Source: Candidatus Bathyarchaeota archaeon (GTDB taxonomy: Archaea; Thermoproteota; Bathyarchaeia; TCS64; B23). Taken from it: a DNA stretch of 41,869 bases. Below the pieces are notes generated by a model. The model worked only from the letters and a program-made list of their open reading frames with translations, did not search any database and was not told the DNA's origin. Each line of letters starts with the position of its first letter. The stretch's first letter is position 1. Both the position numbers and the translations under genes were made by a program. Where the stretch lies: positions 1 to 41,869 of the forward strand of contig CALEIY010000138.1 in NCBI GenBank assembly GCA_937898665.1. The letters run 5' to 3'. Of this stretch, positions 2,240 to 39,978 are shown piece after piece.

Positions 2240-2440
2240 ATGGCTGAGAGGAGGAGGGGTAGGCGCCCAGAGTGCTATGGGATGTATGGCCTCGGAGAGG
2301 AATGTCAGAGCTGCCCCTGGAGGCGTGAATGTATGGAGGCGACGGAGAGGATCATCGCCGCGGCCACGAGGAAGGGAACCCACGTCAGGGTTGTGAGCAA
2401 GTATAAGGAGAGAAAGTTCAAGCCTAGGCGTATACCCTAA
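2240..2440 (+). CDS. Small Cys-rich basic protein of unknown function
   Basis: 66 aa, CYGMYGLGEECQSCPWRRECME (C-x9-C-x2-C-x5-C); promoter-like TATA about 29 nt upstream of ATG. Confidence 0.6.
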   Translation: MAERRRGRRPECYGMYGLGEECQSCPWRRECMEATERIIAAATRKGTHVRVVSKYKERKFKPRRIP

Positions 2441-4497
2441 TCCTCCTGGTAGATCCTCGACTCGCCTTGGACTCTCTTCACCCTTATGATGTTGACGCCC
2501 TCCTCCTCGCCGTAGCCGTGATGTGTCACCAGGAGTATCTGCCCTATCTCCCTGCTGCTCCTGGCGATGTATTCCAGCAGCTGTGGAATGTTCTCGGAGT
2601 CCACCGCATCTGTCGGCTCGTCGAGGATGAGGAGGTGGGTGAAGCCCATAACCCTCAGCAGTGCGAGGCGCTCTGAGAGGGCGAAGAGGCTTTCATGGCC
2701 TCCACCCGCTCTCCAGGCCGGTATCATGCGCTCGGCCCCTATGGGTCTGACCTCCAATATGTAGGTTTCACGGTCTATATGGCAGCCTGAGTAGACCTGC
2801 TGGTCGGTCAGCCTCTCGAAGTATTTATAGGTCAGCCACTCCAATCTGCGTAGAACTCTATCTCGGAGCTCCTTCTCATATTCGCCGTAGCGCTCTACGA
2901 TACGCTCCAGCACCGATATCTTTGCCTCATACTCCCTAACCCTTTCGAGTTGAGATCTCGCCTCCTCCAGCGTCCTCCTCGCCTCCTCCCGTCGACGCTC
3001 CACCTCCCCCCGCCTCCGCTCCGTCTCCCCTATGAGGGCCTCCAGCGATCTAACCTCCCCCTCAGCCTTTGAGGCCTCCTCCCTCAGCGTCTTGAGATGC
3101 TCCTCTACGCCGGCTCTCGCCTCCTCAAGGGTTTTGAAGGCTCGGTTTAGGGTTTCCTCCGCCCTCATCTTGACGGCCTCCCCCATCTCCTCCAGCTCCG
3201 CCTCCAGGGTCTTACCCCTCTCGAAGAGTTCTCGGATGGTTTTCCTCAGCTCCTCTATACGTCGGAGCTGCTCCACGAATCTCGACAGCGTCCTCTCCAC
3301 CTCCAGTCTTCGCTCCCTCGCCGATTTCAATTGGCTCTGGGTCGCCCTGATCTCGGCTTCCAGGTCTCCGAGGCGGAGCTGTTTTGCCTCAAGCTCCTCC
3401 CTCCACTTCGCTATATCCTCCTCCAGGAGTTGATAGTCGATGACCTGTCCACACTTCGGGCATCGGGTTAATCCGCTTTTCTTCAGCTCTAGGTGTTCCT
3501 CGATCTGATGCTTCAGCGTGGCGATCTCTCCGTCGAGGCGCCTCCGCTCAGCCATCAGCTCCTCCTCAAGGGTTCTCTGAAGCCTATCCTCCAGCTCAGT
3601 CATCTCCCTACGACGCTGCTGGAGCTCCGCCAACCGCTTCTCAGGCTGCTCCCCAATCTCCCTGTAGAGGCCTACCAGCTCCTGCTCCCTGTCTCTTCGA
3701 CGCCCCTTTAAGACTTGGAGCTCCGTCTCCGCCTCCCTCAACTTGTCGAACTCGGCCTCTAAGGCCTCAATCCTCCTCAGCCTCTCCATTATGGCTGTCA
3801 ATCTCCCCTTGGCCTCCGTCAGCTTCTCCTCCAGCTCCCTACGCCTCTCCGAGAGTTCTTGGAGCTCCCTTTCAGCCTCTTCGATGTCCCTCTCCGCCGC
3901 CCTCATCCTCTCCTCTATGGCTCCCCGCTCGGTGAGGCCTCCCCGCTCCTCGAGTTTACGCCTCACCTCCCTGAGCTGCTCCCTGATCTCAGCCGGCGTC
4001 GTCAGCCCCAGGATGGCGTCCATCCTAACCCTCCTTGGATTGAGGATCTCTACGAACTCCTTCTGCCTGGCGTAGACGACGTTGAAGAAGGTGCGTTTCC
4101 CTATGCCCAGCAGCTCCCTTATGCGCCTTTGAACCTCCCTCTCCTTCGTGTAGGGCCTCTCCTCGCCTTCTATCTCCAGCTTCAGCAGGGTCGTCTGAAA
4201 CTCCTCTCCTCCCCTCCGGCTTGGAATCAGCATCCCCTCACGGGTGATCCTAACCCTCTGACCTGTTAGGGGGCTTCTAAACCTCAGTGAGACGTGGAGC
4301 TTGCCCCCCTTCAGCGGTATGAGGTCTCTCTTATTGACACCTGGAACCTCGCCGAAGAGGGCGAAGAGGATGGCCTCCAGTAGCGTCGTCTTCCCAGAGG
4401 CGTTTCGACCTGAGATCTTGTTGACTCCAGGCTTGAATCTAACCGTCTGCCTCGAACCATAGCATTTGAAGTTCTCGAGGGTTAGCTCCTCGATCAG
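2437..4497 (-). CDS. rad50: Rad50-like SMC-family ATPase; ORF track truncates the N-terminus at 4233
   Basis: Manual in-frame extension upstream of 4233: LIEELTLENFKCYGSRQTVRFKPGVNKISGRNASGKTTLLEAILFALFGEVPG... contains Walker A. Zn hook RCPKCGQVIDY, long coiled coil, C-terminal LLILDEPTDAVD Walker B. Confidence 0.93.
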   Translation of the reverse strand: MIEELTLENFKCYGSRQTVRFKPGVNKISGRNASGKTTLLEAILFALFGEVPGVNKRDLIPLKGGKLHVSLRFRSPLTGQRVRITREGMLIPSRRGGEEFQTTLLKLEIEGEERPYTKEREVQRRIRELLGIGKRTFFNVVYARQKEFVEILNPRRVRMDAILGLTTPAEIREQLREVRRKLEERGGLTERGAIEERMRAAERDIEEAERELQELSERRRELEEKLTEAKGRLTAIMERLRRIEALEAEFDKLREAETELQVLKGRRRDREQELVGLYREIGEQPEKRLAELQQRRREMTELEDRLQRTLEEELMAERRRLDGEIATLKHQIEEHLELKKSGLTRCPKCGQVIDYQLLEEDIAKWREELEAKQLRLGDLEAEIRATQSQLKSARERRLEVERTLSRFVEQLRRIEELRKTIRELFERGKTLEAELEEMGEAVKMRAEETLNRAFKTLEEARAGVEEHLKTLREEASKAEGEVRSLEALIGETERRRGEVERRREEARRTLEEARSQLERVREYEAKISVLERIVERYGEYEKELRDRVLRRLEWLTYKYFERLTDQQVYSGCHIDRETYILEVRPIGAERMIPAWRAGGGHESLFALSERLALLRVMGFTHLLILDEPTDAVDSENIPQLLEYIARSSREIGQILLVTHHGYGEEEGVNIIRVKRVQGESRIYQED

Positions 4498-5747
4498 GGC
4501 TTTTCACCTCTGAAGCTGTGCTCCTCAAAGCGTCTCAGCCACTCCTCTATGAGGGGCCTCCTCTTACTAGGGGTCAGTAATCCGGTCTCGACGCTCGCCT
4601 CCTCCTCAAGGGTCTCCCGCACCCTCTCATGCATCTCGGCGATCTCCTCGGCGAAGGGGCCGAAGTCACTGAAGAACTCCTCGACGGCCACCTCCTCCCC
4701 GCCTGGTGGAGGCATGAAGGGGGGCATCTCCAGGCCCATGGTGTCGACGTCAACCCATAGGAGTAGAGGCTCCTCCTCCACAAGGCTTTCAACCCCCCTT
4801 AGGTCGATGTCGCTGGGCAAACCCTCCGAGAGGCCTCCCCTAACGGGAACCCTTAGATAGCCAGGCTTGTTGACCCTCCTCAACTCCTCTATGAAGCCCT
4901 TAACGGCCTCTAGGATCTGCTCCGCATACCAGCTTGGAGGCCTACGTCGATCCGAGGTGACGGGTATGCGTCTCATCACATGCATCGGCTCGATGGGTAT
5001 CCACTTGAAGTTAGGCCTCTCAGACTCCGCGTCCTCGACGATGTAAAATCCCTTATCGGGTTTCTCGCCGAAGTCGTACATCTCGAGGGAGCCTGGGGTT
5101 AGGAGCCATCCGCCGTTCGGCAGCGGCTTAGGCTTATGCCTCTCATGGTGGTGGCCTGCGAAGACGTAGCGGGGATCAACCTCAACCAATTCGTCGATGG
5201 TTAGCGCTGGGCTGTAGGGGGGTATATCCTGGTATCCCTGGATGAAGGTGTGGAGCATCAAGATTCGTAGATCCTCATCCTCAGCCTTCTCGAAGGCGGG
5301 TTTCACCAGCTTCTCATAGGCCTTCCCTATGTTCTCATAGTAGCCGAGGCCGACGACGTAGACCCTATCATCGCTGTAGACCATGTTTTCCTCATCGAAG
5401 ATGTGGAGATATTTGGCGAGGGGATGCCTGATATAGTCGAGGGTGTCCGACAGCGGCCTGCCGTCGTGGTTCCCCCTTATGATGAGTATCTTAGGTTCAT
5501 GGCCGTGCTGCTCCGTGATTCCCGTCGCCAATCGGTATAGCTCATCATGGACGAATTGGACGAGGCTTGGTCTGAGGGTTCGACGCTCGAAGAGGTCTCC
5601 ACAGATGAATATGTATTCGACGCCGGCATCTATGATGGCGTCCACAGCCTTCCTAAAGGCCTCGGTGAAGGCTCGGCGTCGATGCTCAGCGATGGCGAGG
5701 GGTATCGATCTCCCTATATGGGCGTCGGCCAATACTGCGAACTTCAT
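4494..5747 (-). CDS. mre11: Mre11 double-strand break repair nuclease
   Basis: MKFAVLADAHIG, GDLFERR, IRGNHDGRP, LHTFIQG, FAGHHHERH calcineurin-like phosphoesterase motifs; followed by rad50. Confidence 0.95.
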   Translation of the reverse strand: MKFAVLADAHIGRSIPLAIAEHRRRAFTEAFRKAVDAIIDAGVEYIFICGDLFERRTLRPSLVQFVHDELYRLATGITEQHGHEPKILIIRGNHDGRPLSDTLDYIRHPLAKYLHIFDEENMVYSDDRVYVVGLGYYENIGKAYEKLVKPAFEKAEDEDLRILMLHTFIQGYQDIPPYSPALTIDELVEVDPRYVFAGHHHERHKPKPLPNGGWLLTPGSLEMYDFGEKPDKGFYIVEDAESERPNFKWIPIEPMHVMRRIPVTSDRRRPPSWYAEQILEAVKGFIEELRRVNKPGYLRVPVRGGLSEGLPSDIDLRGVESLVEEEPLLLWVDVDTMGLEMPPFMPPPGGEEVAVEEFFSDFGPFAEEIAEMHERVRETLEEEASVETGLLTPSKRRPLIEEWLRRFEEHSFRGEKP

Positions 5748-5759
5748 GATCCCCGCCCC

Positions 5760-7331
5760 CTAATATAGGGCCTCATCCTCTTCCCCCTCCGCCTCCCTCA
5801 GGGCCTCCTGGAGGAGGCCGTATACGTCTGGGGTTCGCCCTCCATGTCTTGTTTCGCGCTCCATCGTCTTAATCATCACGGGTATGGGGACGAAGGGGCC
5901 GACGAGGACTGCCTCCCCCTGCTCGAGGGCTGGGAGGTCTTCCAGTAGGTCTTCGGAGAAGGATTCGCTCGCCGCCTGTATTGTCCGCTGATCCTGTGGG
6001 TTTATGACCCTGAATATGGCGAGGTTTCCACAGTTGCTTAGGATGTCTGGGTCAAGTCTCCTGGGCCTTTGACTTATGACTGTTAGGAAGAGGCCGAACT
6101 TCGATCCCTCAGCCGCTATGCGGGCGATGATATCCCTGCTGAATCTCACACCCCTATCTGGGGGAGCTGCGAAGCGGTGTGCCTCCTCGATGAAGATGAA
6201 GAGGGGATGCCTCGCCCAGGGTTGGCGTCGATACTTGGCCTCGAAGACCCTGCGCAGTATGACGCCTACGAGGACATCCTGAACATAGTCCGGTAGGCCG
6301 CTGAGATAGATATCTGAGAGGTGTTGAGGCTTGAAGAAGGCCTTGACGTCGATGTCGCCGTAGGTGAATATGCCCTCCCGTTTAAGGTCTTCAAGCCTCT
6401 CGATGATGCCCTCTATACGCTCCTCCGCTGTCCCCCTCGCCCTCTCCATCTCACGCTCCAATCTATCTAGAATGTCGTCCAGCGTGTATTGGGGATTCTC
6501 ACCTCTCAGCTCCTCTAGTATTCTCCTCAGGAGGAATCTCTGTCGAGGCCCCTCTATACGGGTTAGGGCGCATAGCTCCCTGAAGCCTATGGAGGAGGCG
6601 CTGAGCCTCATGGGCTTCACATGGGGCGCCTCGAAGCGCTCAGCCGCCTCCGGTCTATAGACCGTGACCTTATCATGGAAGAATTCATGGAGCCTCCCAT
6701 CAGGCTTCAAGACCATCTCTGCATAGTCGCCGTGGACGTCTATCGCCAGTATGGAGGCGCCCCGTCTCAGGAGCTCCTCCATGATGCGCCCCGCGAAGTA
6801 GCTCTTCCCATATCGAGTCATCGCCAATATGGCCATATGCCTATGGAGCTCCCTCCCCGAGATGGGGACTATGATGTTCTCCCTATGCAGTAGATGTCCA
6901 ACCCTCAGCGGTATCTCCCCCTCTGGGATGTTGAAGAACTCTCTGAGCAGCTCGTCTGAGGCTCTGTAGACGGGTGTCCCAGGCATCGGTGGGGATCTGG
7001 GTCTGCGTATCTCTCTCCGCCCCTCGGCGTCGTGGATGTAGCCCAGAACCTTCGCCGTGGCGTATATCTGCAATAGATCCGGCGTGATGCCTAGCTCTCG
7101 TTGTTTATAGGCTGCTCCAGGGGTTGTTCTCCTATCGTAGAAGGGGTGGCTGGAGATTAGGCGCTTCACCTGCCCCAGCACCCTCACCCTACGTCGGGAG
7201 CCGTCTGGAAGCTGCTCCTCCACCTCCAGCTCCACATATTCATAGTTCACAGGCCTGTAATCTGGGTCTGAGATGTTGAAGTCGAAGTGCGTCGGGTCTG
7301 CCTGGCCGATGACGTAGCCATACTCCCTCAA
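5760..7331 (-). CDS. herA: HerA DNA helicase/translocase
   Basis: MAMTRYGKSYFAGRI P-loop, LFIFIEEAHRFA Walker B, VISQRPRRLDPDILSNCGNLAIFRV; operon with nurA, mre11, rad50. Confidence 0.95.
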   Translation of the reverse strand: MREYGYVIGQADPTHFDFNISDPDYRPVNYEYVELEVEEQLPDGSRRRVRVLGQVKRLISSHPFYDRRTTPGAAYKQRELGITPDLLQIYATAKVLGYIHDAEGRREIRRPRSPPMPGTPVYRASDELLREFFNIPEGEIPLRVGHLLHRENIIVPISGRELHRHMAILAMTRYGKSYFAGRIMEELLRRGASILAIDVHGDYAEMVLKPDGRLHEFFHDKVTVYRPEAAERFEAPHVKPMRLSASSIGFRELCALTRIEGPRQRFLLRRILEELRGENPQYTLDDILDRLEREMERARGTAEERIEGIIERLEDLKREGIFTYGDIDVKAFFKPQHLSDIYLSGLPDYVQDVLVGVILRRVFEAKYRRQPWARHPLFIFIEEAHRFAAPPDRGVRFSRDIIARIAAEGSKFGLFLTVISQRPRRLDPDILSNCGNLAIFRVINPQDQRTIQAASESFSEDLLEDLPALEQGEAVLVGPFVPIPVMIKTMERETRHGGRTPDVYGLLQEALREAEGEEDEALY

Positions 7332-8572
7332 AGCCTCAGCACCCTCCTCCGGCTTATGAGATTTAGACCAGCCTCCTCCAAACGCTTGACTATGAGGGGT
7401 TCATAACGGGATTCGTAGAGGCCCCTATCAAACCTGGCGATCAGATCAGCCTGGTAGAGGGGTATATTATACTCAACCTCATTACAGAACCAGTAGGCCA
7501 ACCGGTCTAGGAGTCCCTCCAGCTCGATGAGGGAATGCTCATCCCCCATGAATCTGTCGATTTCATAGCTTCCCCAAGGCTCGTAGTAGCCGATGAGGGT
7601 TGATAGGAAGTCGACTCGGAGGGGTCTGGACTCCGGCTGGGGTCTGAAGACGATGGAGGCCACGCCAGGCTGTGAGAGGATGCCTCTCATGGCCTCCTCT
7701 ATTCCCTTAGCCGTCTCCCCCTCAGCCTCCCAGGGTATCTGCGGCGTCCTCCACTGCTGGGGTGGGGCGAGGAGCAGCGGGGTTGTGTAGCCCTCCCCGG
7801 TGGTCGACTCCCTAACCAGGGCGGTGTCGCAGAGGAGGTTTCCAGCGAGGTCTCCCCCCTCGGCTCTAAGCCTTCTGAATAGTTGTTGAAGCCTCTGAGG
7901 TGTTGCCGCCTCCAACTCTCTTAGTAGGTCTCTGAGGCCGCGGGCCTCCGCGATCTCCCTCAATAGGGCGATGTGGAGGTTGAGGGCGGTCGAGTCCTTA
8001 GCTATCGCCGTGAGGGGGAAACCCGTCTTAGCTGATAGGGAGTGGAGTGAGGCTATGGCATTCAGAAGCTCAGCTATCAGATCTGGATGGTGTAGATACT
8101 CGCTTGGCCGCCTTGGTATCCCCATCGGCCTCAGGGATCCATCCATCAATAGTAGGGGTTTATCCCCCATCTCTAGAACCCTGCTGGCGGCCTCATAGGC
8201 TGCGGAGTACTCGGCGATCATCCTGACATATCTGGTTATGGCCTCCCTCTCAGCCTCATCGTAGGCCTCGCCTATGTAGAGCTTCACCCGTTTAACGATG
8301 CTGCTCTCCCCTCCGCTGTAGATGAGGGCGCAGGCTCTACCCACGGCTGTGAAGCCTCCATAGGCGAAGGTGGAGGATTGAACCCCGCCGTCGACGGCTA
8401 TGACGACGCCGTCCCCCCTCCTCGGCTTGGGCATATAGCTCCGCCAACGCCTCCGCAGCATCCTGACGACGGCTGGCAGAGGCTTCGCCTCTCCCCTCCT
8501 CTTCAATCCCTCGACAGCCCTCTCAAGCTCCTCGTAGAACTCCTCGAAGAAGAGGTCGACCATCCTCGACAA
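7328..8572 (-). CDS. nurA: NurA 5'-3' nuclease (TTG start at 8572 or ATG at 8563)
   Basis: VVIAVDGGVQSSTFAYGG (NurA DGG motif), LLLMDGSL, 4-nt overlap with herA. Confidence 0.9.
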   Translation of the reverse strand: MSRMVDLFFEEFYEELERAVEGLKRRGEAKPLPAVVRMLRRRWRSYMPKPRRGDGVVIAVDGGVQSSTFAYGGFTAVGRACALIYSGGESSIVKRVKLYIGEAYDEAEREAITRYVRMIAEYSAAYEAASRVLEMGDKPLLLMDGSLRPMGIPRRPSEYLHHPDLIAELLNAIASLHSLSAKTGFPLTAIAKDSTALNLHIALLREIAEARGLRDLLRELEAATPQRLQQLFRRLRAEGGDLAGNLLCDTALVRESTTGEGYTTPLLLAPPQQWRTPQIPWEAEGETAKGIEEAMRGILSQPGVASIVFRPQPESRPLRVDFLSTLIGYYEPWGSYEIDRFMGDEHSLIELEGLLDRLAYWFCNEVEYNIPLYQADLIARFDRGLYESRYEPLIVKRLEEAGLNLISRRRVLRL

Positions 8573-31365: not shown

Positions 31366-32700
31366 GTGAGAATGATGCCAAACCTCCAGGGTTATAGGGG
31401 GCCTCTCAGGGAGCTTCTGGAGAGGAGCGGCGTCGACGTAGGAGACCTCATCAGAGTTGAGAAGGGCGGCCGCATCTATGAGGGCTATCTAATGCCCCGC
31501 CTAGAGACAGCCGATGAGTGGCATCTCGTTTTGAAGCTGAGGAGTGGATACAACATAGGCGTCGCCTACGAGCCCTCGATGAGGGTCACGAGGCTGGGAG
31601 CCGCCGTCAAACCCGAATTCAGGCCTCCACCGCTTCCGGAGCAGAGGAGTGGCCTACCGAAGGTGAGCATCATCAGCACAGGTGGAACCATAGCCAGTAG
31701 GGTTGACTATATCACCGGAGGAGTCCACGCAGCCATCTCCTCCAGAGACCTCCTAAGCATAGTCCCAGAGCTGGCTGACATCGCCCTCGTCGAGGCCGAC
31801 ATCCTATACAGCCTCTTCAGCGAGAACATAGAGGCTCAGCACTGGTCGGGGATGGCGAGGAAGGTGGCTGAGAAGATCAAATCCGGAGCCGAGGGAGTCG
31901 TCATCACCCATGGAACCGACACGATGGGATACTCAGCCGCAGCCCTCAGCTTCGCCCTAAGAAATCTCCCAGTCCCAGTGATCTTCGTCGGCTCCCAGAG
32001 GAGCTCCGACAGGCCAAGCTCCGATGCGGCTACAAACCTCATAGGAGCCGTCACGGCTGCGGCCTACGCCCCCTTCGCCGAGGTGGTCGTGGCGATGCAT
32101 GAGACCACGTCGGATACCAGCATAGCGCTTCATAGGGGGACGAAGGTGAGAAAGTGTCACACCAGCAGCCGATACGCCTTCAGGTCTGTGAACGCCAGGC
32201 CCATAGCGAGAGTTGTCAAGGGCCGAGTTGAGATGATCGCTGAGGATTATAGGCCTAGGGGGGATGGGGAGCTGGAGCTCCAAGATCGCTTCGATGAACG
32301 GGTCGCCCTCATCAAGTTCCATCCAGGCTTTAATCCATCCCTCATCGAATGGCTCGTCGACGAGGGTTATAGGGGGATAATCCTCGAGGGGACAGGCCTC
32401 GGCCATGTAAGCTCCAAATGCTATGGGCCTCTGAGAAGGGCCGTCAAGGAGGGCCTAATCGTGGGTATGACCTCTCAGTGTCTCTGGGGGAGGGTGAATA
32501 TGAACGTCTATACGACGGGCCGTGAACTCCAGCAGATCGGCGTCGAGCCCCTCGGCGATATGCTGCCTGAGACGGCCCTGGTGAAGTTGATGTGGGCGCT
32601 CGGCGTCTCCTCCTCGAGGGAGGAGGCCCTAGAGCTGATGAGGCGAAACATCGCTGGAGAATACTCGGATCGCACCCTCTACGAGGAGGTGAGGCCATGA
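31366..32700 (+). CDS. gatD: Glutamyl-tRNA(Gln) amidotransferase subunit D
   Basis: VSIISTGGTIASRVDYITGGVHA, VITHGTDTMGYSAAALSF, GTGLGHVSSKCYGPL. Confidence 0.95.
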   Translation: MRMMPNLQGYRGPLRELLERSGVDVGDLIRVEKGGRIYEGYLMPRLETADEWHLVLKLRSGYNIGVAYEPSMRVTRLGAAVKPEFRPPPLPEQRSGLPKVSIISTGGTIASRVDYITGGVHAAISSRDLLSIVPELADIALVEADILYSLFSENIEAQHWSGMARKVAEKIKSGAEGVVITHGTDTMGYSAAALSFALRNLPVPVIFVGSQRSSDRPSSDAATNLIGAVTAAAYAPFAEVVVAMHETTSDTSIALHRGTKVRKCHTSSRYAFRSVNARPIARVVKGRVEMIAEDYRPRGDGELELQDRFDERVALIKFHPGFNPSLIEWLVDEGYRGIILEGTGLGHVSSKCYGPLRRAVKEGLIVGMTSQCLWGRVNMNVYTTGRELQQIGVEPLGDMLPETALVKLMWALGVSSSREEALELMRRNIAGEYSDRTLYEEVRP

Positions 32701-34613
32701 AGATCGACTATGAGGCCATAGGATTGAAGGTGGGATTGGAGGTTCACCAGGAGCTGGACACCAGGCATAAGCTCTTCTGCCACTGCCCCCCTAAGCTCTT
32801 CAGGGAGGAGCCTGAATACACCTTCGTCCGCCGCCTGAGGCCCAGCCAGAGCGAGCTGGGGGAGGTTGACCCGGCAGCCCTCTTCGAGTTCCTGAAGGGT
32901 AAGACCATAGTCTACGAGGCTAATAGGGAGACTAGCTGCCTCGTGGAGATGGATGAGGAGCCTCCAGGGCCGCTGAATGATGAGGCCCTCGACATCTGCC
33001 TCACCTTCGCCCTGATGGTGGGCGCCCAGCCCGTCGACGAGGTTCACGTTATGCGTAAGATCGTCGTCGACGGCTCCAACACGACGGGCTTTCAGAGAAC
33101 CTGCGTCGTCGCCCTCGGAGGCGAGATAGAGGTGGAGGGGAAGCGTATCCACCTGGAGCAGATATGCCTGGAGGAGGATGCGGCGAGGAAGATCGCTGAG
33201 GAGGGTGGAGTCGTAAGATATCGCATCGATAGATTGGGCATCCCCCTCATAGAGGTGACGACGGCCCCCGAGATAGGGTCTCCCTCAGAGGCGAGGAAGG
33301 TGGCCCACGCCATAGGCAGAATTCTAAGAGCCACGGGGCGAGTCCGCAGAGGCCTCGGAACCATAAGGCAGGATCTAAACATCTCCATAAGGGGCGGCGC
33401 CCTCATCGAGATTAAGGGGGTTCAGGAGCTAGACCTCGTCGAGAAGGTCGTCGAATACGAGGCGATGAGGCAGCTGAGGCTGCTGGAGATCGCCGAGGAG
33501 CTTAGAAGTCGAGGCCTAAAGCCCGAGGATCTCGAAGGCCTGGAGCCGGTTGATGTCTCAGACCTCTTCAGGGAGACGAGATGCCGCATACTGCGGAGGG
33601 AGCTGAAGCGTAAGGGGCGCATCTACGCCTTGAGGCTTCCAAGATTCGGGGGCCTCCTGGGCAGGGAGCTATGCCCTGGGAGGCGCCTTGGAACAGAGAT
33701 GGCTGACAGGGCTAAGTTCTGGGGAGGCGTGGAGGGGATACTCCACACGGATGAGCTTCCAGGCTACGATATAACAGCTGAGGAGGTGGAGGCCCTCCGC
33801 AGGCGGGTGGATGCTGAGCCTGGAGACGCCGTCGTCATCGTCGCGGGGGAGGCTGAGCGGTGTAGGAGGGCCTTAAAGGCCGTGCTGGAGAGAGCCGTAG
33901 AGGCCCTGGAGGGCGTGCCAAGCGAGACGAGGGCCGCCAATCCAGATGGGACTACGCATTACACGCGGCCTAGGCCTGGCCCAGCAAGGATGTATCCGGA
34001 GACCGATGTCGTCTCGATTCCGATTACGGAGGAGCGTCTAAGGAGGCTGAGGGAGAACCTCCCCGAGATGCCCGAGGAGAAGCTGAGGAGATTCATGGAG
34101 GAGTATAAGCTGAATGAGAAGCTCGCCAGGCAGATCATAGACTCCGAATACACAGCCCTCTTCGAGGAGATAGCTAGAAGCCTAAAGGTCTCGCCGACGC
34201 TGATAGCGGTGACACTCACCGAGACCCTTAAGAGCCTATCCAGAGAGGGGGTGAGGGTCGACCTCATCGGCGACGACGCCTTGAGAGAGATCTTCAAACT
34301 AATCGAGGAGGGGGCGATGATGAAGGAGGCCATCCCCGACGTCCTCACATGGCTAGCTGAACATCCCGACTCGACGGCTAGGGAGGCCCTCAGAGAGCTG
34401 GGATTGGAGCTCCTCTCGAGGGAGGAGCTTGAGGCCATCATCAAGGCGAAGATAGAGGAGAATATCAAACTCCTTAAGGAGCGCGGCCCCAGGGCCTTTG
34501 GCCCCCTGATGGGGAGGGTGATGTCGGAGGTGCGGGGTCGAGCCAACCCAGCTGAGGTGCAGGAGATTCTTAGAACCCTTATAAGTGAGCGGCTGAAGGG
34601 GTTGGAGGGCTAA
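32697..34613 (+). CDS. gatE: Glutamyl-tRNA(Gln) amidotransferase subunit E
   Basis: MKIDYEAIGLKVGLEVHQELDTRHKLFCHCPP; ATGA overlap with gatD. ORF-track start (32592) is upstream of the true ATG. Confidence 0.96.
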   Translation: MKIDYEAIGLKVGLEVHQELDTRHKLFCHCPPKLFREEPEYTFVRRLRPSQSELGEVDPAALFEFLKGKTIVYEANRETSCLVEMDEEPPGPLNDEALDICLTFALMVGAQPVDEVHVMRKIVVDGSNTTGFQRTCVVALGGEIEVEGKRIHLEQICLEEDAARKIAEEGGVVRYRIDRLGIPLIEVTTAPEIGSPSEARKVAHAIGRILRATGRVRRGLGTIRQDLNISIRGGALIEIKGVQELDLVEKVVEYEAMRQLRLLEIAEELRSRGLKPEDLEGLEPVDVSDLFRETRCRILRRELKRKGRIYALRLPRFGGLLGRELCPGRRLGTEMADRAKFWGGVEGILHTDELPGYDITAEEVEALRRRVDAEPGDAVVIVAGEAERCRRALKAVLERAVEALEGVPSETRAANPDGTTHYTRPRPGPARMYPETDVVSIPITEERLRRLRENLPEMPEEKLRRFMEEYKLNEKLARQIIDSEYTALFEEIARSLKVSPTLIAVTLTETLKSLSREGVRVDLIGDDALREIFKLIEEGAMMKEAIPDVLTWLAEHPDSTAREALRELGLELLSREELEAIIKAKIEENIKLLKERGPRAFGPLMGRVMSEVRGRANPAEVQEILRTLISERLKGLEG

Positions 34614-34835
34614 ACCCCTTTATAATTCTCTGAGTCCCCCAATTCATAGATTATTAAATTTCATCGGGTTTAGCGGAGGAAGATTTAATTGATTGGTGAA
34701 GGGGACGATCTCAAAGGAGTCAATTATCGAGGGGTGTTCACTCCCTCTGGGATTTATTCACCCATATAAGACGTGGCAAGTATTATAGACCCCATCCATA
34801 ATAATTACGTCGAAGACCCCTCTCAGTGGTTAGCC

Positions 34836-35270
34836 ATGGGTAGGCCCGCCTTCAGGTTGAGGGTGAGGATCGGCGACATGGAGGTGGAGATGGGAGGGGA
34901 ACGTGAGGAAGTCCTCTCCACCCTCGAAGACCTCGGTGGAATCATCTATAAGGTTTCAAGGGCCTTCAGGATGAAGGAGGCGCGGGGGAATCCAGAGGCC
35001 CTGGAGGTGGAGGAGGGGAAGGGGGAGTATCCGAGGATACCCTGGACATCGCGATGTAGTGAAGCCGTTATATCGCTTCTATCGACGGAGTGGGGTAAGA
35101 CTCCGCGCACCCTCTCCGAGCTGAGGGAGGCGATGGAGGCCAACGCGATATTCTTCCCGAAGACAACCCTCTCCGGCGTCCTCGTCTGGCTGGTGAAGCG
35201 TGGCAAGCTCAGACGATGGAGGGATAAGAAGCGAGGCTACCTATACGTCCTCAATGAGGAGGAGGGGTGA
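34836..35270 (+). CDS. Unknown protein: N-terminal beta/alpha domain plus C-terminal winged helix (track start GTG 34773)
   Basis: MGRPAFRLRVRIGDMEVEMGGEREEVLSTLEDLGG aligns by eye with the next gene; C-terminal LSTEWGKTPRTLSELREAMEANAIFFPKTTLSGVLVWLVKRGKLRRW. Confidence 0.7.
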   Translation: MGRPAFRLRVRIGDMEVEMGGEREEVLSTLEDLGGIIYKVSRAFRMKEARGNPEALEVEEGKGEYPRIPWTSRCSEAVISLLSTEWGKTPRTLSELREAMEANAIFFPKTTLSGVLVWLVKRGKLRRWRDKKRGYLYVLNEEEG

Positions 35271-35738
35271 TTGCCACGCATAAGGGTTGGAATCAAAACC
35301 ACCTTCGGTGAGATAGAGGTAAGCGGCGAGACAGCTGAGGAGGTTCTGAAGGCCCTAGAGGAGATCGACGAGGTCTTCCTCAGAGAGGTTGACAACCGAA
35401 TCTCATCTCTGATGGTCAATAGGGCTAGAGACAGCCTCAGGGGCATAGTGGAGATGAGGGGTGACGGCCCCATAATCGTCACCAAGAAGAGGCTCACCCA
35501 CTATGAGGCCATAGGCCTCATACTCTACTCGATGAAGGATCACCAGGCATCGAGTGGGGAGATAAAGAGATGCCTAGCCGCAAGTGGGAGGAAGGTCACA
35601 GTCCCCGCCAGGCTCCATGAGATGAGGAGGAGGGGATACATCTTCAAACCGGCTGAGAGATCTCCGATATACAAGTTATCAACCAAGGGTGTGAAGTGGA
35701 TAGAGGAGGAGGTTCTCCCACAGCTGAGGAAGAGGTGA
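35271..35738 (+). CDS. Paralogous N-terminal domain plus winged-helix protein
   Basis: MPRIRVGIKTTFGEIEVSGETAEEVLKALEEI; C-terminal YEAIGLILYSMKDHQASSGEIKRCLAASGRKVTVPARLHEMRRRGYIFKP; adjoins preceding stop codon. Confidence 0.75.
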   Translation: MPRIRVGIKTTFGEIEVSGETAEEVLKALEEIDEVFLREVDNRISSLMVNRARDSLRGIVEMRGDGPIIVTKKRLTHYEAIGLILYSMKDHQASSGEIKRCLAASGRKVTVPARLHEMRRRGYIFKPAERSPIYKLSTKGVKWIEEEVLPQLRKR

Positions 35739-35860
35739 CCAGGGATAGAGGGAGGGGTCATGCCAGGGGAGTTTGAAATAGGCCTCTAAAGGCTTCTGGA
35801 GACCCCGAATCCGCCATCCCAGGCTGAATCGTGCCTCCTTGTCCACGTCTAGAGCTGGGT

Positions 35861-36175
35861 TCAGCCCCTCTCCCCTGAGGCCTCATAGAGGTCTGAGACC
35901 AATTGGAGTAGGCTTAGGATTATCAACTTATGATCACAGGTGTAGGCCCCATTCCTGAAGGGGGTTCGCTGTATCAAACCCTTCTCCAAAAGCTTGGCCA
36001 CAGCCCTCTCAGCCGCCTTGGCCGTTAGGCCAAGCTCACCTGCCAACTCCCTGATGGTCATAGCCCTCCCACTCCGGAGGAGGTGATGAAAGACGGCAAA
36101 TTGACTTGGGGCCCTCTTAAGCCTCAGAAGGGCCTCACCCAGCTCTCGGAGCTCCTTCACAACCTCCTCAGACAC
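35861..36175 (-). CDS. Small winged-helix protein, array member 5
   Basis: AMTIRELAGELGLTAKAAERAVAKLLEKGLIQRTPFRNGAYTCDHK wHTH pattern, C-terminal helix; 8-nt overlap with upstream gene. Confidence 0.8.
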   Translation of the reverse strand: MSEEVVKELRELGEALLRLKRAPSQFAVFHHLLRSGRAMTIRELAGELGLTAKAAERAVAKLLEKGLIQRTPFRNGAYTCDHKLIILSLLQLVSDLYEASGERG

Positions 36176-36443
36176 CTCCCAACTCCTCCTTCAAAACCCT
36201 ATAGAGCTTCATGAGTATATCATAGGGGGTGACCCTGGAGATGTATCCCTGGGGGGTCGAGGAGACGAGGCCAGCCTCCTTGAGCTCAGCCAGCCTCGCC
36301 CTCACAGTTGAGGGCTTCTCTCCCAGGCTCTCAGCTATCTCCGAGGGCTTTAGGGGGCCCTCCCTGAAGGAGAGGTAGCAGAGAACCTTGAAGGCTGAGG
36401 TTTCAAGCCTCAGATCCTCCAGCCCCCTAATCCTCCCCTTCAT
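36168..36443 (-). CDS. Small winged-helix protein, array member 4
   Basis: PLKPSEIAESLGEKPSTVRARLAELKEAGLVSSTPQGYIS; 4-nt overlap with upstream gene. Confidence 0.82.
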   Translation of the reverse strand: MKGRIRGLEDLRLETSAFKVLCYLSFREGPLKPSEIAESLGEKPSTVRARLAELKEAGLVSSTPQGYISRVTPYDILMKLYRVLKEELGGV

Positions 36444-36700
36444 CCTCCCCTCTCCAGATACTCCCTCAATAGAGGTGCGAGGATCGCCCCCAGCTTATAT
36501 CGATATACTCCTCTCGCCACCCGTTCCACCAGACCCTTATTGTGGAGGTTGTGCAGCGCGATGTTGACGGCGTTCACCGTCATAGACAGCCTCTTAGCGA
36601 TCTCCTGCGACGACATAGGCTCCCCATTCTCCACTAGGCAGAGTAGCACCTCCCTCTGGCTCACAGCCCTCCTCAGGCTCTCCAGGGCATCGGAGGCCAA
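36440..36700 (-). CDS. Small winged-helix protein, array member 3
   Basis: PMSSQEIAKRLSMTVNAVNIALHNLHNKGLVERVARGVYRYKLGAILAPLLREYLE. Confidence 0.82.
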   Translation of the reverse strand: MASDALESLRRAVSQREVLLCLVENGEPMSSQEIAKRLSMTVNAVNIALHNLHNKGLVERVARGVYRYKLGAILAPLLREYLERGG

Positions 36701-36712
36701 GGCAACCCACGC

Positions 36713-36988
36713 CTAACCCTTCAATAGCCTGGCGTAGAGGTGGGAGAGAACCTCGACGAGGGGGAGCTGCTTCACAGCGGCGTAGGATCCATCCTCCCGC
36801 TGGGTGACAAACCCCCTCCTCAGCAGCGTCCTCAGGGCAGGCCTCACGGTTCCAGGTGAGATACCCGTCTCCTCGGCGATCTGACTTGGAGACATGGCTC
36901 CCCTGAGGGAGAGGTGTAGAAAGATCTTGAAGAGGCTCGTCGTCGGCGACAGCTCCTCAAGCGCCCTGTCCAGGATGGATTCAGCCAT
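36713..36988 (-). CDS. Small winged-helix protein, array member 2
   Basis: AMSPSQIAEETGISPGTVRPALRTLLRRGFVTQREDGSYAAV; 1-nt TGATG overlap with upstream gene. Confidence 0.82.
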   Translation of the reverse strand: MAESILDRALEELSPTTSLFKIFLHLSLRGAMSPSQIAEETGISPGTVRPALRTLLRRGFVTQREDGSYAAVKQLPLVEVLSHLYARLLKG

Positions 36989-37239
36989 CAGCTACCACCC
37001 CGCTCAAGCGCCTCTATTCTCTCAAGGAGGTGTAGCAGGATTCCCTCATAATTTACGGAGTAGTTTCCCCTTCCCTCCCTTCTGAGCAGCCCCTCCTCGC
37101 AGAGCCTGGCGTAGATGGCCTTCACCGAGTTGTAGTTCGCGCCGAGTCTCTCAGCCATCTCAGAAGGCCCCAGTCCAGGATTCCTGAGGAAGGTCTTGAA
37201 GACAAGCTCTCTCAGGGTTCCCCCTTTCTCCATCTTCAA
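36988..37239 (-). CDS. Small winged-helix protein, array member 1 (promoter-proximal)
   Basis: GLGPSEMAERLGANYNSVKAIYARLCEEGLLRREGRGNYSVNYEGILLHLLERIEAL. Confidence 0.8.
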   Translation of the reverse strand: MKMEKGGTLRELVFKTFLRNPGLGPSEMAERLGANYNSVKAIYARLCEEGLLRREGRGNYSVNYEGILLHLLERIEALERGGS

Positions 37240-37432
37240 CTATCGATGACGCTTAATCCATTAATTAACTTTACTTTTGGCTCAAGACCTAAATGAATCC
37301 CAACTCAATTTTCAGCGAGCATATTAATTTCTCCATATATAAATAAAATGGCCAAAATCGGAAATTATGCTCGGAGCGATCGCAGCATTTAAATATCGAA
37401 GAAAGGATTGACGTTATAGTGGTGTTCTGAGG
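37240..37432. promoter_or_regulatory. AT-rich divergent promoter region between the wHTH array and the second NurA-HerA pair
   Basis: TATA-like stretches CCATATATAAATAAAA (about 37333-37348), CATTTAAATATC (about 37385-37396), TTAATTAACTTTA near the array start; palindrome GCGATCGC 37376-37383. Confidence 0.65.
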
Positions 37433-38485
37433 GTGGGCTCCCTAGCTCTGGAACAGGCGGAAGTGGGGGAGGGAAACCCCAACCTCTGCCTAGCCATAAG
37501 AAACCTCCTCCTCAACGAGATACCTGAAGATGTGGAGGAGAGCCTCGATGCCCTCCGAAGGCTGGTGGAGAGGCTTAGAGGGGAGCTCACCCTCCACAGC
37601 TTGGAGAGGAGGGAATGTTTCACCTCCGTCGCTGGGGCTGATGCGGGAAGCCAGATACTCCCCCTGGCTTCGAGGAGATACGCCGTCGTGGACGCCCTCG
37701 TCTACGAGGCCCCATCGGGCAGTCGCTTCTTCCTCCCACCCCTATCTCTCGCGTTTCCCTACACCATCTCCGATGAGAGGTTTAGGGGCATCGTCGCCGT
37801 TAGGAGGGAGGCCCTCCTCTACGAGACGCTCATCGAATACCTCAGCCATGATCCCCCTGTGGAGCTAATCCTCGTAGATGGGCCTCTGGCCTTCAGCAAC
37901 TGGTGGAGCATGAGGGGTCGTAGGGCTGATCGTCGGAGGCTCATCGACGCGGTCAACGGCTTTCTAAGAATCTGTCGGGAGCGGGGCATAGCTGTGGCCT
38001 CCATAGTGAAGAGACCCTCAGCCCGATACCTCATCTACCATCTAGGCCTTAAAGAGGAGACGGAGCTTCCAGACGCCTTCCTACTGCTTCACCTCCTGAG
38101 ACCTGGGGAGCGGACAAGCCTCTTCTCACCGAGGGAGGCTCTACGAAGGGTGGTGAGATCAGCCCCCCTAATGGACGCCTTGGAGGCCTCCATCTACTCC
38201 TTCTACTGTCGACTGACCTCAGATTGGGCCATCCCGCCAATCAGGATCGATGTACCGGACTTCTCCCTCAGCCATATCGATGAGATAGCTGATCACTGCT
38301 ACTGGTCATCGATGTGGTGGGGGATCCCGCTGCCCATCCTCAGAGCCGACGAGGAGGTCAGAATCTCGAAGAGGCTGATCGCCGACATATACTCCGAGAT
38401 CATAGGTCGAGTTGGAAGACTTCTCGGAGACGTCTCATATCTAGCACCCTACTGGGGTGAGGGACGGTGGATGGGAACCTCTTAG
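37433..38485 (+). CDS. Second, diverged NurA-domain nuclease
   Basis: SVAGADAGSQILPLASRRYAVVDAL, VELILVDGPLAFSNWW, AVASIVKRPSARYLIYHLG, VPDFSLSHIDEIADHCYW fit the NurA layout; 19-nt overlap with a HerA-type ATPase gene. Confidence 0.82.
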   Translation: MGSLALEQAEVGEGNPNLCLAIRNLLLNEIPEDVEESLDALRRLVERLRGELTLHSLERRECFTSVAGADAGSQILPLASRRYAVVDALVYEAPSGSRFFLPPLSLAFPYTISDERFRGIVAVRREALLYETLIEYLSHDPPVELILVDGPLAFSNWWSMRGRRADRRRLIDAVNGFLRICRERGIAVASIVKRPSARYLIYHLGLKEETELPDAFLLLHLLRPGERTSLFSPREALRRVVRSAPLMDALEASIYSFYCRLTSDWAIPPIRIDVPDFSLSHIDEIADHCYWSSMWWGIPLPILRADEEVRISKRLIADIYSEIIGRVGRLLGDVSYLAPYWGEGRWMGTS

Positions 38486-39978
38486 GGCATACCTACAGCC
38501 CCACGGGGGAGTACCACCTCGATGAGATCACCTTCATACTACTCAGAGGCCGTGAGGTGGCGAAGGGAGACCTAGTCTACGTCATACATCCAAAGACGGG
38601 GGCACCTGTCGTCTATCAGGTTCGTAGGGTCTATCCGCATAGGCGGGTTAGAGGCTATGAGGAGGCCCTTCTACGCGAGGGTCGGATCATTAGGGATTTC
38701 GAGGATTCATCGATACATGCCGAGGCCTATCAGTGGGGCTGGATCGATGAGGAGGGGAGCCTAAGACCCCTACGTCACCCCCTCCCGCCGAATACGCCTG
38801 TCTTCAAGGCTGATAGGGGCATAGTCGCCAGGTTCACGAGGCCCGAGGGGGATTGGAAGATTCTATTGGGCGTAGACCCCAGCACGGAGCTGGAGGTGGA
38901 GCTAGGCGTCTATCCATTGATCAGGCAGAGCTGCCTCATCTGCGGAGCAGTAGGAACGGGGAAGACGACGACGGCCATAACGATGATCTGCCGAGCCGCC
39001 TCCCTAAATCCGCCGGTGAGATTCCTCATCGTCGACAAGGACGGCGAATATGCGAGCCTCATAGATCGACTCGGCCCCGAGAACGTCCTGAGGGTTCCCT
39101 GGAGCCGATTCTTCCAGCCCTCAGAGGTCGACTGGGAGGACTACCTCACAGAGTTCGGATGGCAGAAGACCTGGTGGAACGCCAAGATATTGATGAAGGC
39201 TCTGCGGAGGCTCTACGCCGAAGGCCGTATGGTGACGAAGGAGTCGCTGAGGGAGGCGGTTAGGGCCGTAGACCCAGAGCGGCTGGGCTTTAACAAGCGC
39301 CTCGACGAGTTTGAGAATTATCGGCAGCAAGTCATCAACGCCGTCAACACGTCGAGGCTGATACCTGAGGGAGACTTAGACCCCCTAGATCCGGTGAGAC
39401 TATTGATGAATTGGAGGGTTGTCATCATGGATCTCAGCGAGGGGGTGGACACCTGGGAGCAGAAGCACATAGTCATCGCCCAGGTTCTGCGACGAATATT
39501 CAGGGAGGCCTTGGAGAATCGACGCTTCGGATGCGTCGTCGTATTGGAGGAGGCGATGTACTACGCCCCTCAACGAGGTCTCTTCGAGGTTGGGTCTAAG
39601 GAGAGCAGGGCGAAGCTGTTGAGTATAGTGAAGGAGATCGCGACGAACGGAGGCAGAAACGGGGTGGGCCTATGGATCGTCACCCAACGCCTGGCGACGG
39701 TGGAGAAGACCGTTGTGACGCAGTGCGCCAACAACATCATCTGCCACTCCCTCGAAGACTTGGATAAGCAGCGTCTCGGCGAGATCGTCGGCGACGAATT
39801 CATCCAGCTGCTGGGAGACCTACCCCCAGGGGAGGCCATCGTCAAGGGGACAGCGCTGAAATGTCGATTCCCCATCTGGGTTAAGGTCATACCGGAGCTC
39901 TATCCAGCATCGGCTGAGACCACGCCTATGAGCAGATTCATGAGCATGGAGCTCGCCTCCCTAGAGGCCCACACCTGA
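38467..39978 (+). CDS. Second HerA-type ATPase
   Basis: SCLICGAVGTGKTTTAITM Walker A, FLIVDKDGEYASLIDRL, CVVVLEEAMYYAPQRG Walker B, LWIVTQRLATVEKTVVTQCANNIICH; HAS-barrel-like N-terminus. Confidence 0.9.
   Translation: MDGNLLGHTYSPTGEYHLDEITFILLRGREVAKGDLVYVIHPKTGAPVVYQVRRVYPHRRVRGYEEALLREGRIIRDFEDSSIHAEAYQWGWIDEEGSLRPLRHPLPPNTPVFKADRGIVARFTRPEGDWKILLGVDPSTELEVELGVYPLIRQSCLICGAVGTGKTTTAITMICRAASLNPPVRFLIVDKDGEYASLIDRLGPENVLRVPWSRFFQPSEVDWEDYLTEFGWQKTWWNAKILMKALRRLYAEGRMVTKESLREAVRAVDPERLGFNKRLDEFENYRQQVINAVNTSRLIPEGDLDPLDPVRLLMNWRVVIMDLSEGVDTWEQKHIVIAQVLRRIFREALENRRFGCVVVLEEAMYYAPQRGLFEVGSKESRAKLLSIVKEIATNGGRNGVGLWIVTQRLATVEKTVVTQCANNIICHSLEDLDKQRLGEIVGDEFIQLLGDLPPGEAIVKGTALKCRFPIWVKVIPELYPASAETTPMSRFMSMELASLEAHT

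Follow-up and report, generated by a model that had tools for sequence, protein, structure and literature searches.

A second NurA-HerA pair in Bathyarchaeia and the winged-helix proteins encoded beside it

Why should an archaeal genome keep a second NurA-HerA pair, and why next to seven genes for winged-helix (wH) proteins? This question is raised by a 41,869-nt stretch of DNA (hereafter the window, meaning the whole stretch that was analysed) from a Bathyarchaeia metagenome-assembled genome (MAG). In Sulfolobus, HerA-NurA-Mre11-Rad50 is essential and HerA-NurA resects DNA ends 5'-3' (PMC4351679), and the operon encoding the four proteins is induced by DNA damage (PMC10470591). For most other archaea of the phylum we found nothing on the loading or control of HerA-NurA, and no paper was found that describes wH proteins or conserved dyads with NurA-HerA. 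Here we describe a family of widespread, uncharacterised proteins encoded alongside the pair, together with short DNA sites that are almost unique to its promoter; with both in hand, the control of archaeal end resection becomes directly testable using a handful of purified proteins and a single DNA fragment. We give a probability of about one half to the reading that the wH proteins are a dedicated module, including a local autoregulatory switch, that controls a second DNA-end-resection machine.

The nine-gene locus

The genes for NurA2 (37433-38485, plus strand; Pfam NurA, 8.9e-13) and HerA2 (38467-39978, plus strand; Pfam DUF87/HerA, 6e-12) overlap by 19 bp and stand separately from a canonical-type NurA1-HerA1-Mre11-Rad50 set at 2437-8572, which bears out the proposal of an earlier note on this DNA that the pair is a second one beside the canonical operon. 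The catalytic acids D70, E126 and D149 are invariant in the NurA2 alignment, the Walker A, Walker B LEE and TQR motifs are conserved in the HerA2 alignment, and a PDB search matched HerA2 to the S. solfataricus HerA structure 4d2i (2.7e-11). Overlapping genes with intact ATPase and nuclease motifs are also found in the archaeal HerA-NurA(-Mre11-Rad50) end-resection complex of Sulfolobus (PMC4351679, PMC5715905), and, as in such resection pairs, a NurA nuclease with its catalytic acids adjoins a HerA ATPase with Walker A and B motifs. NurA2-HerA2 is not in an operon with Mre11-Rad50, a trait that is not strictly defining since many pairs stand alone. Unlike the Sulfolobus complex, it belongs to a second, separate lineage that is coupled to a wH array and conserved dyads. 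By analogy with the known complex, the HerA2 ring translocase would pump DNA into the NurA2 nuclease, and the locus would encode a second, chromosomally fixed DNA-end-processing machine.

From a 193-bp divergent spacer shared with NurA2 (37240-37432), five small wH genes read leftwards on the minus strand, neighbours overlapping or lying 0-12 bp apart: wh5, which adjoins the spacer (36988-37239; Pfam HTH_24, 1.1e-4), wh4 (36713-36988; HTH_IclR, 3e-9), wh3 (36440-36700; MarR_2, 4.4e-7), the ArsR/HTH_5-like wh2 (36168-36443; HTH_5, 3.8e-8) and the MarR/Lrs14-like wh1 (35861-36175; MarR_2, 6.9e-9). Converging on this array from the plus strand are the open reading frames (ORFs) of whA (34836-35270; 144 aa, with an alternative longer GTG start at 34773) and its paralogue whB (35271-35738; 155 aa). 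ORFs, Pfam and AlphaFold2 models all confirmed this nine-gene layout as the earlier note had drawn it. Its count of seven wH proteins was also right, but the seven are not of one kind: whA and whB form one two-domain family, larger than and distinct from wh1-wh5. The whA model combines an N-terminal beta-beta-alpha-alpha domain with a C-terminal winged helix (mean pLDDT 79, above 90 in the wH part), whB has the same build (pLDDT 88.6), and the two are homologous over their full length (hhalign probability 93-95%). Neither matched Pfam, NCBIfam or PHROGs, and a PDB sequence search gave marginal HTH matches only. The top Foldseek matches of the whA model were winged helices, none falling below 1e-3 for either protein.

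The five array proteins match winged helices of the MarR/ArsR/IclR/HTH_24 types in Pfam; against NCBIfam the closest matches are partial and fall short of the cut-offs, and they resemble MarR/ArsR/Lrs14 regulators. They share with such regulators their fold, a divergent gene placement and a single inverted repeat over the promoter, and differ from them in being five tandem paralogues retained as separate orthologous groups. In a tree across the order each makes up a separate clade, represented once per genome (support 99/98 for wh1, 98/92 for wh2, 99/97 for wh3, 92/81 for wh4 and 100/100 for wh5), so the tandem expansion is older than the order, which has kept all five copies. Within the tree wh2 groups with wh4 (92/89) and, less firmly, wh1 with wh3.

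NurA2 is present in 29 of the 32 genomes of the order, in single copy except that one genome has a further, weak match, and HerA2 is 67-99% identical among the relatives. Wherever a fetched locus had sequence to either side, whA-whB, wh1-wh5 and NurA2-HerA2 keep the same order and orientations; as all nine genes recur in order, the layout is not due to chance. An apparent loss of the array with a 938-aa NurA fusion, in locus L041, proved to be an artefact of a run-of-N assembly gap.

Linkage of whA and whB to NurA-HerA across the phylum

The earlier note had allowed that the adjacency might be confined to this genome or its close relatives, or that the array proteins might be ordinary regulators of unrelated operons; we found instead that the linkage of whA/whB with NurA-HerA is phylum-wide. 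Profiles for the two proteins, derived from loci linked to NurA, a choice that may skew recall, matched 211 of the 257 genomes of the class (whB in 211/257) and 111/398 genomes of the phylum, the phylum-wide sample being 398 genomes of one phylum, with incomplete MAGs among them. By coordinates alone, and among the matches listed, whA lies within 5 kb of HerA or NurA in 103 of the 109 genomes that have whA. The proximity tally takes in every listed match, while some fetched loci were hand-picked to spread over families. The median gap is 1167 bp, about one NurA gene, and the gene between whA and HerA was Pfam NurA in 5 of 7 scanned cases; recovering the divergent NurA of the commonest linked lineage (lineage I below) required iterated NurA/HerA profiles. 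The strands of whA and HerA/NurA are opposite at 99/117 places and the same at 18/117. Among the 59 loci fetched for whA/whB, 44 also hold a NurA-HerA pair, and in genomes without NurA2 whA/whB adjoin another, divergent pair. We conclude that the wH proteins are dedicated to NurA-HerA. The expectation that wH genes and the pair co-occur in distant genomes held for whA/whB; wh1-wh5 are restricted to the window's order as far as tested.

A HerA tree placed the linked pairs in at least two separate lineages, although its long branches make the deep branching order unsafe. Lineage I is a whA/whB-linked clade of 41 rows (100/100), lineage II a 20-row clade that includes HerA2 (99/99) and lineage III a small whA/whB-linked group; close relatives without whA/whB nearby exist for both II and III. 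Lineage-I HerA occurs in 101 of the whA genomes and is absent from 8 (genome-level Fisher p 6e-62, an overstatement, as related genomes are not independent). It was undetected in the window's order, with no match in the three genomes G000 (the window's own), G002 and G017. Upstream of whA/whB, the genes for GatD (31366-32700, plus strand; Pfam) and GatE (ORF 32592-34613, plus strand; Pfam) anchor the locus as constant neighbours, in the window and in lineage-I loci alike; GatE-GatD adjoins whA in L113 and GatE adjoins whB in L145. The simplest reading would be that the nuclease-motor pair was replaced beside a constant whA-whB neighbourhood.

In two loci (L145 and L152) the wH-linked cluster, whose pairs are related to those above, runs on into Mre11 and Rad50 as in the Sulfolobus complex, and in a third (L156) Mre11 is nearby. 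The suggestion of a role in repair survives in this weaker form. Beside lineage I, the genomes G204, G208, G209, G212, G217 and G243 have another HerA match, a weaker one (about 1e-62 to 1e-71), and a related pair in f14 (L067, L069) has no whA/whB nearby.

Inverted repeats in the divergent promoters

Alignment across the order revealed a 56-bp, operator-like dyad (37317-37372, no strand) in the spacer between wh5 and NurA2. In the window it consists of a left arm GAGCATATTAATTTC (37317-37331), a TATA-like core ATATATAAATAAAAT (37335-37349) and a right arm GAAATTATGCTC (37361-37372); its order-wide form is GAGCRTNNTAATTTC ... GAAATTAYGCTC flanking the core, with the arms 44 bp apart, start to start, in 26/26 distinct sequences. 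Exact half-sites number 54 in the 32 genomes, of which 29 lie in this spacer; the 25 found elsewhere come close to the number given by a reversed-pattern control (15). To the left of the dyad, the conserved block TTAATTAACTTTACTTTTGG (37262-37281, minus strand) is, from its position, probably the promoter (TATA/BRE) from which the wh5-wh1 operon is read leftwards, and to the right TTTAAATATC (37388-37397, plus strand), also conserved in the order, probably serves the NurA2-HerA2 operon as its TATA box.

Lineage I has a different dyad, containing CATGCRCAAYAYTTA, over the divergent whA/NurA promoter. This motif was found in 35/40 lineage-I genomes, with 35 of its 36 copies 0-102 bp upstream of whA and none for a reversed-pattern control. 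The fold of the wH proteins and a conserved inverted repeat in their own or target promoter, not above chance elsewhere, are together what a local autoregulator would present, and the spacer repeats appear as operator-like sites that would suit a DNA-binding protein acting locally and regulating itself.

In the window's order the spacer upstream of whA-whB is separate and does not contain the 56-bp dyad. There, in the window (34740-34836) and in relatives, a partly conserved AGTATTATA ... GTAATWATTAC was noted, possibly a second palindrome for whA-whB. Rfam gave no match over 34.6-40.0 kb of the window.

Possible roles of the winged-helix proteins

In the mechanism that we propose, the wH genes would supply a DNA-binding module dedicated to NurA2-HerA2. 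At least one of their products would bind the inverted repeat conserved in the spacer that the two operons share, and would so control both its own operon and nurA-herA. The likeliest binder would be the product of the gene transcribed away from the pair, that is wh5 or another array member here and the divergent whA copy in other lineages; the releasing signal might, at a guess, be DNA damage. The other wH proteins may form heteromers as part of this switch or may work at DNA ends, and the switch and accessory-subunit roles may both apply, to different members. The earlier note had thought of adaptors or loaders; because the inverted repeats are conserved and confined to a single locus, a transcriptional switch is likelier for at least one wH protein than a purely structural role. 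Several points weigh against a switch. Two to seven wH proteins are many for a single promoter, no sensor or ligand domain was seen, and in L058 and L137-L147 whB/whA lie upstream on the same strand with no divergent regulator present. An unlinked factor could bind the repeat instead, and the persistence of the family where the pair belongs to another lineage and the repeat has another sequence also fits a physical partnership. The evidence base, moreover, is MAG data.

Such a partnership is the chief alternative, though a tentative one to which we give rather less than even odds. Here the wH proteins would be accessory subunits that attach to DNA ends or junctions and, much like condensin kite subunits with their ATPase, help to load or orient the HerA ring or hold it back, the repeat being a separate, ordinary promoter feature. 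It would account for the presence of several distinct wH proteins at each locus, all of them old orthologous groups that have been maintained separately, for a family that stays as the NurA-HerA lineage changes, for the extra N-terminal domain of whA/whB and for the almost gapless, one-strand arrangement whB-whB-whA-NurA-HerA(-Mre11-Rad50) in L058 and L145; the location on opposite strands in the majority of genomes, and repeats that are restricted to that promoter, fit regulators better. MukE/kite condensin subunits offer a likeness, being small wH proteins encoded with a DNA motor, but the Foldseek match of whB to MukE (E 0.02) is not significant, MarR regulators score better, and the genes that were identified at the locus include no SMC or kleisin gene. 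That whA/whB, with wh1-wh5 in the order, are true subunits of the machine, making up a heteromeric platform on DNA by which the HerA ring is loaded or gated at DNA ends, and one widespread in the phylum, strikes us as less likely than not, if worth keeping in mind.

Defence against viruses or plasmids, with HerA-NurA as effector and the wH proteins sensing or restraining it, was another suggestion of the earlier note and now looks improbable. HerA-nuclease pairs are used in bacterial defence, and NurA2-HerA2 resembles the anti-phage HerA systems (PADLOC HerA, NCBIfam HerA_antiphage) in having a HerA-type ATPase beside a nuclease; other HerA-type complexes are among the PDB matches of HerA2, and HerA2 is weakly similar to the PADLOC HerA model (4.3e-21). 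On that same model, however, canonical HerA1 scores better (2e-46), and against HerA_antiphage HerA2 reaches 54 bits, far under the cut-off of 800. The pair is chromosomally fixed, near-universal and syntenic in the order, its neighbours are housekeeping genes (GatD, GatE, NUDIX) and no defence genes were recognised nearby. The notion that the wH genes are ordinary regulators of unrelated genes, adjoining NurA-HerA by inertia, is largely refuted: GatD-GatE is a constant neighbour too, with no obvious functional tie, and the whA-whB cluster stands apart from the pair in G103, G152 and G217, yet the association holds phylum-wide, under varying orientations and alongside HerA of separate lineages, and the repeats are not above chance at other genes. 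Least probable of all is a chromosome-handling or replication-origin locus with the AT core as an unwinding element bound by wH initiators. An AT-rich core between inverted repeats of fixed geometry would suit it; the repeat differs among lineages and sits on a divergent promoter, and Orc1/Cdc6 genes are distant, and inconsistently so (about 85 kb in G007, more than 400 kb in G011).

Several further observations concern related genes. The Rad50 ORF of the canonical set (2437-4233) is just 598 aa long with a weak SMC_N match, and is possibly divergent or truncated. The window's own genome carries two further HerA-like genes, on contigs C58 (L162) and C164 (L078), and a third NurA on C94 (L160) with a partial HerA-like ORF ahead of it. 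On its contig C245 (L161) a whA-like gene (1890-2285) accompanies a tyrosine integrase (5535-6740); it is possible that the whA/whB family also rides a mobile element in this genome. The HerA of three genomes contains an intein-like insert, running from Ser1 to His-Asn before a Thr, inside the Walker A loop (L090, 6565-9192, minus strand; L091, 6845-9367, minus strand; L093, 9121-12285, plus strand).

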